Assembly (NCBI GenBank): GCA_017458185.1
Contig: JAFTFY010000028.1
Location: forward strand, 1-64,000
Direction: 5' to 3'
DNA length: 64,000 bases
Source: Neisseriaceae bacterium
Lineage (GTDB): Bacteria > Pseudomonadota > Gammaproteobacteria > Burkholderiales > Neisseriaceae
Made by a program: the position numbers and the translations under genes
The notes under the pieces: model-generated
The model's input: the letters and a program-made list of their open reading frames with translations, nothing else
Told to the model about the DNA's origin: nothing
The model's database searches: none
In this document: piece after piece, positions 26,325-57,210 of the stretch
Layout: every line of letters starts with the position of its first letter
Numbering within the stretch: the first letter of the stretch is position 1

Positions 26325-26591
26325 ATGAGCAATCATATAAAAAACGATTTTTATTTATTTTCCAGTGCAGACGGCAAAATTTCCGTTGATGTTCGCTTTG
26401 ACGGCGAAACCGTTTGGTTGTCTTTGGAGCAAATGGCAAATTTATTTGAGCGAGATAAATCAACCGTTTCTCGGTATATTAAAAATGTGTTTAGTGAGAA
26501 TGAGTTAGACGAAAATTCAGTTGTTGCAAATTTTGCAACAGTTCAAAACAAAGCACGGGTAACTTGTTGCTTACGCTGTTATAGTCGTTAA
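26325..26591 (+). pseudogene. RhuM-family virulence protein, N-terminal remnant
   Basis: The 88 residues match the RhuM N-terminus: DGKISVDVRFDGETVWLSLEQMANLFERDKSTVSRYIKNVF, a winged-helix-like DNA-binding region, then SENELDENSVVANFATVQ. The frame ends in CCLRCYSR-stop instead of the usual DGK/YNLD continuation and is far shorter than the 300 or so residues of the family. The decay point lies in a segment duplicated upstream at 26206-26262. Probably not functional. Confidence 0.65.
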
Positions 26592-46654: not shown

Positions 46655-47785
46655 ATGAAACCCGCTTTTCAAATTGACAACACGCAAACACGCACGGAAA
46701 AAATTCTTTTGGTGTGTGTGGATTTTCCGCATATTCCTGATTTTAATATTGCGGTTGCAGAAGCGGTTGAATTAGTCAAAGCGGTTGATGGCGAATTGCG
46801 GCAAACCGTTGTGTGCAAACGCAATCAGCCGCATTCGGCTTTGTTTGTTGGCACGGGCAAGGCGGACGAGTTGGCGGAAATTGTGGCAACAAACCAAATT
46901 GATTTGGTGATTTTTAATCACGAACTTTCGCCCACACAAGAACGCAATTTAGAAAAAGTGTTGCACTGTCGTGTTTTGGATAGAGTGGGTTTGATTTTGG
47001 CGATTTTTGCCCAGCGTGCCCAAACGCCCGAAGCCAAATTGCAAGTGGAAGCCGCACAATTAACGCATTTATCGGCGCGACTCATTCGTGGTTATGGGCA
47101 TTTGCAAAGTCAAAGGGGCGGTATCGGCTTAAAAGGGCCAGGTGAAACGCAGTTAGAACTTGACCGCCGCTTAATCGGGCAGAAAATCGCACGGCTCAAT
47201 AAACGCTTGGCAGAAGTTAAAAAGAATAGGGCGGTGCAACGGCAAAATCGACAACGCAACAAAATGCCCGTGTTTGCTTTGGTAGGTTACACCAATGTTG
47301 GCAAATCCACACTGTTTAACGCCTTAACAAAATCCGAAGTTTTTGTGAAAAATCAACTGTTTGCCACACTTGATACAACCGCTCGCCGCCTGTGGTTGTC
47401 GCCTGAATGTAATATTATTTTGACTGATACAGTCGGTTTTGTACGCGATTTACCACATTCTTTAATTGACGCATTTTCGGCTACTTTGGAAGAGACAGCA
47501 AACGCCGATATTTTATTGCATATTATTGATATTTCAGATAAAAATTATGAAGAAAAAGCCGATAAAGTGGAACAAACGCTGCACGAAATCGGTGCTATCG
47601 ACATTCCCAAAATCAAAATATTTAACAAAATTGACCAAATTTCTAACACAAAAGCAGAAATTTTACGCAATAATAACGGCTTGATTCGTGCGGTTAAAAT
47701 TTCCGCAATCGAGCCGCAATCCATTGAATTATTGCGACAAGCATTATGCTTCGTTGCAAACGAACTGAAAGGGCAAACGCAATGA
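46655..47785 (+). CDS. hflX: GTPase HflX
   Basis: This ribosome-splitting GTPase acts under stress. The 376-residue protein has the HflX N-terminal domain, GLKGPGETQLELDRR, a coiled linker, and the G domain (GYTNVGKSTLFN, DTVGFVRDLPH, NKIDQ). The ATG follows a DUS by three bases with no other clear ribosome site, as at dusB. The stop overlaps the next start (ATGA). Confidence 0.94.
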   Translation: MKPAFQIDNTQTRTEKILLVCVDFPHIPDFNIAVAEAVELVKAVDGELRQTVVCKRNQPHSALFVGTGKADELAEIVATNQIDLVIFNHELSPTQERNLEKVLHCRVLDRVGLILAIFAQRAQTPEAKLQVEAAQLTHLSARLIRGYGHLQSQRGGIGLKGPGETQLELDRRLIGQKIARLNKRLAEVKKNRAVQRQNRQRNKMPVFALVGYTNVGKSTLFNALTKSEVFVKNQLFATLDTTARRLWLSPECNIILTDTVGFVRDLPHSLIDAFSATLEETANADILLHIIDISDKNYEEKADKVEQTLHEIGAIDIPKIKIFNKIDQISNTKAEILRNNNGLIRAVKISAIEPQSIELLRQALCFVANELKGQTQ

Positions 47786-48147
47786 CGGACAAAACCTTGT
47801 ATCAACAATTAGGCGTAGGCAAAGCCGCAGGTGACGGCGAAATTTTGCGTGCTTTACGCACCAAAGCCGAAAGCGGCGAGTGGAATTTAGAAAAAGTACG
47901 CGAAGTCAAAAGCGTGCTGTTGGACGAAGCCAAACGCACCGAATACGACAAAACCATAGAACCCAAACCCTTGTCAGAAGAAGAAGACAAGAAAATTCAA
48001 CAAGTTATAGCACAATACCAAATGCAAATGGCCATGGAAAGTGCCAAAGACGAACGCTTTGAATTTTTGCAAAGCAAAATGGGCAAAATGGTGCTGTTTC
48101 TGATTGCGGTGGTGGTGTTGTCGCTGTTGATTGCGTTGATTATTTAA
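47782..48147 (+). CDS. J-like (HPD-less) tail-anchored protein
   Basis: The 121-residue protein has one J-like domain (YQQLGVGKAAGDGEILRALR...WNLEKVREVKSVLLDEAKRTEYDKTI) that lacks the HPD motif needed to stimulate Hsp70. A polar helix and one C-terminal TM (MVLFLIAVVVLSLLIALII) follow. The same domain occurs twice in the protein at 56040-56576. It is coupled to hflX. The role is unknown; classical co-chaperone activity is unlikely. Confidence 0.65.
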   Translation: MTDKTLYQQLGVGKAAGDGEILRALRTKAESGEWNLEKVREVKSVLLDEAKRTEYDKTIEPKPLSEEEDKKIQQVIAQYQMQMAMESAKDERFEFLQSKMGKMVLFLIAVVVLSLLIALII

Positions 48148-53519: not shown

Positions 53520-54627
53520 CTAAACGCCTTGTTTCAAACTCGCTTCGATAAAGCCGTCTAAATCGCCGTCCATCACCGCTTTAATATTGCCCACTTCATA
53601 CGAAGTACGCAAATCTTTAATGCGCGACTGGTCGAAGACATACGAGCGGATTTGGTGTCCCCAGCCCACATCGGATTTAGAATCTTCCAAATTTTGCTTT
53701 TCTTCGTTGCGTTTTCGCATTTCAATTTCAAACAATTTGGCACGCAGCATATTCATCGCTTCTGCCTTATTGCGGTGTTGCGAGCGGTCGTTTTGGCATT
53801 GCACCACAATGCCTGTGGGATTGTGCGTAATACGCACCGCAGACGAAGTTTTGTTAATGTGCTGCCCGCCCGCACCGCTGGCACGATAAGTATCAATGCG
53901 TAAATCGGCAGGGTTGATTTCAATTTCAAAACTGTCGTCAATTTCAGGATACACAAACACAGACGCAAACGAAGTGTGGCGTTTATTGTTTGCGTCAAAC
54001 GGCGAGCAACGCACCAAGCGATGAATGCCCGTTTCGGTTCGCAGCAGACCAAACGCATACGCCCCTTCTAACTTAATTGTGGCACGGTTAATGCCCACCA
54101 CTTCGCCTTCGTCCTCTTCCAAAATGTCGATTTTAAAACCTTTGCGTTCGGCATAACGGCAATACATACGAAACAGCATGCCCGCCCAGTCTTCCGCCTC
54201 CGTGCCGCCTGCCCCTGCGGTAATGTCGATAAAACAATTATTCGCGTCCGCAGGCTGGTCGAACATGCGTTTAAATTCCAAGTCGGCAATGCGTTTTTCT
54301 AATGCCAAAATATCGCTTTCAACGGCGGCAAATGCGTCTGCGTCATCTTCTTCTGCCGCCATTTCAAGCAACATTCGATTGTCGTCAATGCCGTTTGACA
54401 CTTCTTCAACCGTCAAAACCACATCTTCTAACATTTTGCGTTCTTTGCCGATGGCTTCCGCTTTTTTGGGGTCATTCCACAAATCAGGGTCTTCGGATAA
54501 GCCGACTACTTCTTCTAAACGATCTTTCTTGCCATCGTAGTCAAAGATACCTCCGAATATCGCCATTTCTTTGCGACAAATCGTCTAATAAGTTATTCAG
54601 TTGATTGATTTTTTCTTGTTCTATCAT
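53520..54627 (-). CDS. prfB: Peptide chain release factor 2, programmed +1 frameshift
   Basis: RF2 reads UAA and UGA. Translation starts at ATG 54627 ([12 protein letters not shown]), runs 28 codons to CTT-TGA (54541-54543) and shifts +1 to read [19 protein letters not shown]-like stimulator precedes the shift site, as in E. coli. The rest has SPF (anticodon-like), [15 protein letters not shown] with the catalytic GGQ, and totals about 368 residues. The gene thus shows the usual autoregulation by UGA. Confidence 0.96.
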
Positions 54628-54712
54628 TTGTGTATTCCTTAAATAAAGTTCAGGCTGCCTGAAAGGTAAAAACTGCGTATTTTAACAGTATTTCAGGCTG
54701 CCTGAAAATTGC

Positions 54713-55972
54713 TTACTCATCTATACCATCTTCTATTTTTCTCAATATTTTTCGGTAATATTGCGGCTTTTCCTCACCATTGTGAATAAAATAGGTATGC
54801 GAATAACCGCGACACACAGGCATAAACACATTGCCGCTTTCTGAAAAGAAAAAACCATCATCACACATATGGTCAATTTTAGCGGCATTGCGTAAGTCTC
54901 GTGTATTGACTCGTGCAGGATTTAATTCGTCCCAATAGCCATTTGATTTATTTAAATTGTGATAATAAAAGGACATAGTGTTTGGATTATTGGTAATATT
55001 GGGGCTATTATTTTTACTAAACATAGCCAATGTTTTTTTATTTACTTGTCCTACAAGAAATAAATCATTATATTTCGGACGATAATGATAATTATAAATA
55101 TAGTGCATATCAATTTTTGATGATTGCAGTTCTTTATAATTGTTTATATCCCAACGAACAAAATGATGATCTATACTATATGGGTGTTTGGCTTGAATAA
55201 AATAAATTTCTTTACCATTAACAGAAAACTGTGGTTTATAGACTTTTAATTTATGAAAATCTTTTTCAAAAATATTATCTACCGCCACAATAATATCTTT
55301 TTCTTTTTTAAGTCGATATATGTACATTTTTTCTTTATAAAAATGTTCATAATCGCCACTTTCTTTTGTTACAAAACTATCATGACATATAATGCCTACT
55401 TGTTCTCCTTCTTTGTCAAAAACTATTTCTCTACCTAAATGACCACAAATATCACCATTATATGTAATATAAATATTAGAAACTTCTTTACTAATTAAAT
55501 CATAAAAAGCAATCATACCATCTTGATGATACCCATGAGTAGTACATCCCCAACTGTTATTTTTATTTTCCTTACACCATTGAAAAACTTTACTTGAAAA
55601 AGGCAATTCGACATTATTTATATCAAATGCTAAATATCGTTCATTCAAAAACATTGCTCTACCAATAGGAATTTCTTCAACAAAATCACTATTCAAATCA
55701 AAAAGATAAGTTTTTTGACTTCCAAAAACAAATAATTTCCCATTGTCTGTTAATTTAACTTTATCTAAAATTTTAGTCTTTCCAATAAATTTGTTGATTT
55801 TTTCTTCTTTTTGTTTTAACTCATTATTATTTTTGTTATGGATATTGTATAAAGAAATATGCTTTTCTCTTTCATTATATCTGTCATCTCTTTCTGCTGA
55901 TAAAGGTCTTTTTTGATATAAAGTTGTAATATTTCCGTGTTTATTTTTTGAAATGGAAACATATTCAATCAA
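54713..55972 (-). CDS. Repeat-rich (possible beta-propeller) protein lacking a clear start
   Basis: About 419 residues, AT-rich, with strands of the kind LTDNGKLFVFGSQKTYLFDLN, YKPQFSVNGKEIYFIQAKH and DGFFFSESGNVFMPVCRG, suggestive of WD40-like blades. No family is recognised. There is no ATG: the frame is open upstream of a TTG (55972), without a ribosome site, back to the end of the J-like gene. Loss of one T from an eight-T run there would fuse the two proteins. See findings. Coding is likely, the start uncertain. Confidence 0.5.
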   Translation of the reverse strand: MIEYVSISKNKHGNITTLYQKRPLSAERDDRYNEREKHISLYNIHNKNNNELKQKEEKINKFIGKTKILDKVKLTDNGKLFVFGSQKTYLFDLNSDFVEEIPIGRAMFLNERYLAFDINNVELPFSSKVFQWCKENKNNSWGCTTHGYHQDGMIAFYDLISKEVSNIYITYNGDICGHLGREIVFDKEGEQVGIICHDSFVTKESGDYEHFYKEKMYIYRLKKEKDIIVAVDNIFEKDFHKLKVYKPQFSVNGKEIYFIQAKHPYSIDHHFVRWDINNYKELQSSKIDMHYIYNYHYRPKYNDLFLVGQVNKKTLAMFSKNNSPNITNNPNTMSFYYHNLNKSNGYWDELNPARVNTRDLRNAAKIDHMCDDGFFFSESGNVFMPVCRGYSHTYFIHNGEEKPQYYRKILRKIEDGIDE

Positions 55973-56039
55973 GATTGGATTTTTTTTATTATTTGTATCA
56001 ACTTCATCTGAATCTTGGCGATTTAATATTTTTTTGCGT

Positions 56040-56576
56040 TCAGTAAAAAAAATATTTTTCTCCTGATTTCATTCGATAAGGGTAAATATTTTTATAATAA
56101 TAATTTGCATACCAAATAGTTGAAGATAATAAAACAACCGCAACAATAAAAATAAATGATTTTGAAAAAAGTGGCTGTGATTTTTGTATTTTTTGAGAAA
56201 TTATAGGCGGATTTTCAACCACAATCGTTTGATTATATTTTTCTCTTTTTTCTGTATCCAATAAAGTTTCTTTAATTTCCTGAATTTGTTCTAATAATAA
56301 TTCCCCGCTTTCGGCTTTACGGCGAATAGCATTTAATATAATATTTTCAGACGCATTTGGTGAAATATTTAATATTTCGTAGAAATTTTTAGATTTGTTT
56401 TGCGTTAAAGTTAGATTATATTCCGCTCTTTTTTCAGGATTTAACAGCGTTTCTTTAATAGTTTGAATTTCTTCTAATGAATATTGACCGCTTTGAGCTA
56501 ATCGTTGCAAAGCGTTTAAAATGGTTTGTTCGTTTGCGTCAAAAGCAATATTCAATTCTTCGTAAAAGTTTTTCAT
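56040..56576 (-). CDS. Double J-like (HPD-less) membrane protein
   Basis: The 178-residue protein has two copies of the J-like domain seen at 47782 (about 1-55 and 64-122: FYEELNIAFDANEQTILNAL and FYEILNISPNASENIILNAI), both without HPD. One TM (about 143-162: FIFIVAVVLLSSTIWY) and a short tail follow. Its coding end has a run of eight T (56045-56052 on the opposite strand as A) before the stop. The downstream gene is in the frame reached by slippage. Confidence 0.6.
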   Translation of the reverse strand: MKNFYEELNIAFDANEQTILNALQRLAQSGQYSLEEIQTIKETLLNPEKRAEYNLTLTQNKSKNFYEILNISPNASENIILNAIRRKAESGELLLEQIQEIKETLLDTEKREKYNQTIVVENPPIISQKIQKSQPLFSKSFIFIVAVVLLSSTIWYANYYYKNIYPYRMKSGEKYFFY

Positions 56577-56604: not shown

Positions 56605-57210
56605 CTACAATCTTTCCGCCAATTTTTGGGCTAACTTTTCAGCCACTTCCTGCCATGTAGGGCATGGGGTGATGAAATCGGCGATTTGTGTCATTGCCAA
56701 ACCTGCGTAGCCGCAGGGGTTAATTTGGGAAAATGGGGACAAATCCATAGCCACATTCAACGCCACGCCGTGATAGGTTGCTCCGTTTTTAATTCGCAAA
56801 CCCAAAGACGCAATTTTTTTGCCGTTTTCTGTATAAACACCAGGTCGTTTTGGGTCGGCGGCGGATTGTATTTGATAGTCGCTTAATGTGGCAATCACGG
56901 CGTTTTCAATGCGGCTGACTAATTCCCGCACCGAAATTTGACGGCGTTTAAAATCAATCAACACATAAACCACCACTTGCCCCAAACCGTGATAAGTAAT
57001 CTGCCCACCGCGGTCGGTTTCAATCACAGGAATATCGCTGGCGTGCAATAAATGTTCAGATTTACCCGCCTTACCCTGCGTAAAAACAGGGGCGTGTTCC
57101 ACCACCCATAACTCATCTTCGGTGCTTGCCGTGCGTTCTTCGGTAAAAGCCTGCATGGCTTGAAATATCGGTAAATACGGTTGATTGCGTCCTAAATATT
57201 TGATTTTCAT
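56605..57210 (-). CDS. lipB: Octanoyltransferase LipB
   Basis: It transfers octanoyl from ACP to lipoyl domains; lipA acts next. The 201-residue protein has [57 protein letters not shown] and [12 protein letters not shown] with the catalytic cysteine (NPCGY). Lys in KIASLG fits the second catalytic residue. Confidence 0.95.

Follow-up and report, generated by a model that had tools for sequence, protein, structure and literature searches.

Results

The window, the whole 64,000-nucleotide stretch of DNA analysed, contains on its minus strand two overlapping reading frames between a lipB-like gene on the upstream side (56605..57210) and prfB, encoding release factor 2, on the downstream side (53520..54566); both gene names are putative, assigned from the sequence. 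The upstream frame (56040..56576, 178 codons) encodes two J-like domains (residues 1-119; 56220..56576), a linker and a putative membrane segment (residues about 140-160; 56097..56159), and terminates at a TGA (56040..56042) directly 3' of a run of eight T (T8; A8 on the plus strand) at 56045..56052. The downstream frame (54713..56068) is open for 451 codons, reads through T8, lies one base out of register with the upstream frame and encodes a large propeller-like domain. These coordinates and runs agree with the sequence-only reading, in which a J-like membrane gene ended just past T8 and the next frame stayed open back to it. The second run of eight A that it placed at 55980..55987 (T8 on the plus strand) is also present and leaves the downstream frame, in which it lies, unbroken; an A7 run is found at 56029-56035, close to the T8 break.

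An open stretch of 451 codons would arise by chance with P of about 4e-20 given the base composition, and the other five frames of the same stretch carry 24-67 stops each. Codon-position composition is the same in the downstream part as in the upstream part. No plausible start of its own was found for the downstream frame: the listed 419-codon version begins with TTG at 55972, and the first in-frame ATG lies ~105 codons further in. The earlier statement that this frame lacks both an ATG and a ribosome site holds for the ATG near the junction, but an AGGAG does stand just 5' of T8. It is accounted for by the upstream frame, which encodes Gly-Glu there, and GGAGAA occurs at that place in relatives G004 and G002 as well.

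The downstream protein was used to search 60 relatives, one genome per species, with E 0.01 or better counted as a match. Matches were obtained in 4 of the 60, all four among the 6 genomes of the same genus and all Neisseriaceae metagenome assemblies from omasum or reticulum. In each of them the J-like and downstream parts share one open frame (613 aa in G006, 697 in G005, 693 in G004 and 594 in G002, whose whole copy, on contig C83, has a single J-like domain), so that the fused gene which the sequence-only reading proposed to look for is present in 4/6 same-genus relatives. When the 613-aa protein of G006 was aligned to the window by tblastn, residues 3-177 matched frame -3 down to 56046 and residues 176-609 matched frame -1 from 56050; the two matches meet at 56046/56050, which places the frame break inside the T8 run and bears out the proposal that both frames belong to one protein. 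Since the gene is uninterrupted in four relatives of the same genus, the apparent two genes represent a single gene carrying a frameshift of one base. The comparison thus shows that relatives have the gene as one unit, where exactly the frame breaks, and that neither part contains another stop.

The downstream part had no match in the other two same-genus genomes, G001 (99% complete) and G003 (58% complete). A profile search of contigs returned none in a first scan and the four relatives in a second, run with the alignment; beyond the genus, among the matches listed for 83 family genomes, all fell in the J-like and membrane part (profile positions 1-195). Genome G002 also carries, on contig C97 (1501-1770, locus L006), a 3' remnant of the gene, with stops, beside prfB, and in G006 the gene adjoins lipB but is separated from prfB, on the same contig, by about 131 kb. 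Within the genus the gene is thus dispensable or mobile in position, and this is compatible with an ordinary lesion. As a separate observation, genome G001, although rated 99% complete, gave no prfB match at E 1e-100.

Silent donor copies were sought in the genome itself and rejected, the downstream part matching only itself. Paralogues of the whole gene were likewise rejected; the only other J-like matches were two, one at 47785 and one on contig 8. The former is a stand-alone gene (47785-48147) that shares the J-like domain kind and a membrane segment with the split gene, but is short and without a propeller-like part. It lies directly 3' of a putative hflX-like gene, and the same pair occurs in G006.

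The J-like domains have 89-91% amino acid identity with those of G005 and G004. They resemble J-domain proteins (Pfam PF00226) in their profile and PDB profile matches to DnaJ (Pfam DnaJ E 2.2e-11 for the upstream frame) and in the helical domains of a relative's model; unlike J-domain proteins, neither has the HPD motif when the translation is read, and intact G006 scores 20.5 against the Pfam J-domain cut-off of 27.8. The membrane segment is predicted from hydrophobicity in the translation and from a long helix in the relative's model. That model, of the 613-aa G006 protein (pLDDT 68.2, pTM 0.58), suggests, roughly, helices first, then a long helix and then strands.

A model of the downstream part built from five sequences (pLDDT 71, pTM 0.74) consists mostly of strands, and Foldseek returned many WD40-type propellers among its best PDB matches (best E 2e-7, TM to target about 0.5). 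For the large downstream domain first described as a repeat domain, propeller-like, from model and Foldseek, is the better label; the label is a modelled fold lead and assigns no family. No named family for this part was found in NCBIfam, and Pfam gave just a sub-threshold DUF7907. A role as a defence protein was considered and dropped, none of four proteins tested having a PADLOC match. A literature search for a Neisseriaceae membrane protein with J-like and propeller parts gave nothing fitting among the papers listed.

The T8 run itself is no more than chance expectation in this gene of 27% GC. Runs of at least eight are expected 2.4 times in the gene under a Markov model and 3.5 times under a synonymous-codon shuffle, and the 64-kb window holds 17 A/T runs of at least eight. 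Phe is encoded by TTT in 34 of 36 codons, so almost every Phe-Phe pair yields a long T run. At the matching place the longest T run is 5 in G006, 5 in G005, 6 in G004 and 4 in G002; T8 is absent from 4/4 relatives, which rules out a conserved contingency tract. Eight T also fall short of the published A/T tract cut-offs, both derived from Neisseria and not from the genus of this genome: one source sets 11 or more for phase-variable genes (PMC5953494), and another describes tracts below 9 that vary by one unit as 'weak' and not over-represented (PMC5084427).

The linker, membrane segment and propeller-like part together form a diverged module (54707..56211, minus strand) with ~55% DNA identity to G005 and G004 and sharp edges, against ~89-96% in the flanks. 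Per 100 bases, identity to G005 is ~79-99% from lipB through the J-like part, ~45-65% from ~56211 to 54707, and 93-99% over most of prfB. Third-position differences number 13 in the 119 J-like codons, 24/201 in lipB and 38/348 in prfB, but 233/436 in the downstream part. Adjacent third positions should not be so unequal through mutation alone, which makes import by recombination the simplest reading, and the module was probably acquired in this way. On the minus strand at 54540-54640, AGGTATCTTTGAC seems to be what we take for a classical prfB +1 frameshift site, so the listed 348-codon prfB frame would be the second part only. Two uptake-type sequences, AGGCTGCCTGAA, lie at 54652 and 54695 (54652..54706), just past the stop codon and the module edge; this 12-mer is named AG-simDUS in PMC7371117. 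The window holds 99 copies of it, so the closeness of two to the edge proves little.

The downstream part of the window is approximately equidistant from all four relatives (33-36% amino acid identity). In a leave-one-out comparison of the five sequences, the window retained 54 of the 73 residues agreed by the other four, as did intact G002 (54/73), with which it shares the lowest place (0.74), against 54/65 for G006, 54/59 for G005 and 54/64 for G004 (0.83-0.92); in this measure, constraint that acted before the frame was broken looks the same as constraint since then. By this comparison the downstream part is without strong decay, and its lower score may reflect divergence or early decay.

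A Pfam scan for other split genes in the window, covering ten frames that were short or adjacent, revealed no pair sharing one family. The short frame at 26325-26591, which presumably resembles a RhuM-type protein, ends early in repeat-like DNA that is also present at about 26210. An intergenic repeat-like stretch at 13500-13740 matches a G006 frame in several frames and on both strands.

Discussion

The locus is best read as one gene (J-like, J-like, membrane segment, propeller-like) that is frameshifted at T8, and we consider it likely that the frameshift arose by a recent, ordinary replication slip without evolved switching. An ordinary slip of one base at T8 would put the downstream part out of register, and the main product would then be a membrane-anchored J-like protein of 178 residues that lacks the propeller-like domain. 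If RNA polymerase skips a base on T8, a minor share of full-length protein might still be made. In E. coli, polymerase slippage is reported to require T7 or longer, and one-base deletion on T8 to reach about 10% of an in-frame GFP control (PMC6260861), which makes such a minor share plausible without an evolved switch. The T8 run being chance-expected and unconserved counts for an ordinary slip, and the tolerated loss of the gene (remnant in G002, no match in G001) counts for an ordinary lesion. The absence of further decay downstream counts against a lesion, as the same look would be expected of a working or a switching gene. The lesion, an assembly error and a switching allele were weighed by judgement, with one genome per species.

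An assembly or sequencing error, in which the gene is actually unbroken in the genome and the length of the run was called wrongly, is unlikely. The break falls in a homopolymer, a frequent place for miscalls, in a 40-contig draft genome, and the whole remainder of the gene is open and conserved. Against this, 39 of the 66 A/T runs of at least seven in the window lie well inside intact frames of at least 100 aa, and of the 10 G006 frames (135 searched) that matched the window, 8 were colinear in a single frame, the remaining two being this gene and a repeat-like non-gene. Both observations count against general homopolymer miscalls, though not against an isolated one. The sequence-only reading had instead raised a possible slippage-controlled fusion; control by slippage is not supported here. 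Phase variation, with T8 changing length at a high rate and toggling the propeller-like domain on and off, would fit a break exactly in a homopolymer with both sides otherwise intact, and selection could plausibly act on a diverged module carried by a predicted membrane protein. Switching through homopolymers is well established in Neisseria (PMC5953494), and the gene resembles the phase-variable genes there in having a homopolymer within a coding frame in the same bacterial family. It differs from them in a tract too short by both cut-offs, 11 (PMC5953494) and 9 (PMC5084427), chance-expected in its gene and matched by a long run in 0/4 relatives (4-6 T in each), and we regard phase variation as very unlikely.

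A constitutive two-product gene, in which transcriptional slippage or a +1 ribosomal shift at T8 would yield a fixed and needed ratio of short to full-length protein, is highly improbable, even though the direction of the slip and the frame fit and both parts are intact. Its model is tssM of Citrobacter rodentium, for which transcriptional frameshifting at A11, both products and the need for them are demonstrated (PMC4256274). As in tssM, the gene is truncated just past a homopolymer and the next frame encodes the missing domain, and by run length, the single feature examined, T8 exceeds the T7 minimum from which the E. coli polymerase slips, with deletions of about 10% on T8 (PMC6260861). Unlike tssM, the run is T8 and not A11, the case is known from sequence alone, and the relatives have an unbroken frame and no conserved run. 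The alternative of a ribosomal shift finds little in the slip codons, which are not of the prfB type. The programmed +1 motif of prfB has a Shine-Dalgarno-like sequence directly before CUU UGA; that motif is absent from the T8 junction, where UAC precedes the stop after UUU UUU. Two separate genes, with the downstream protein made from its own start, are scarcely credible. The TTG at 55972 opens the 419-codon frame and AGGAG stands just before T8, but there is no ATG near the junction, conservation with the relatives extends to codons 5' of the TTG, and a product started there would be missing the membrane segment, which in all four relatives belongs to the same protein.

A broader proposal, which we hold to be quite unlikely, treats the locus as a mosaic. 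The membrane segment and propeller-like domain would be swapped as one module by transformation while the paired J-like domain stays fixed, and T8 would set a minor, slippage-made full-length share, leaving most molecules without the outer domain.

The annotation is corrected from two genes to one, and the whole gene exists in relatives. Should the split prove regulated, the locus would be a case of dosage control by a short T run. The probable module exchange, with the J-like half fixed and the other half strongly diverged, suggests that in Neisseriaceae from the rumen and related sites this locus is subject to exchange.
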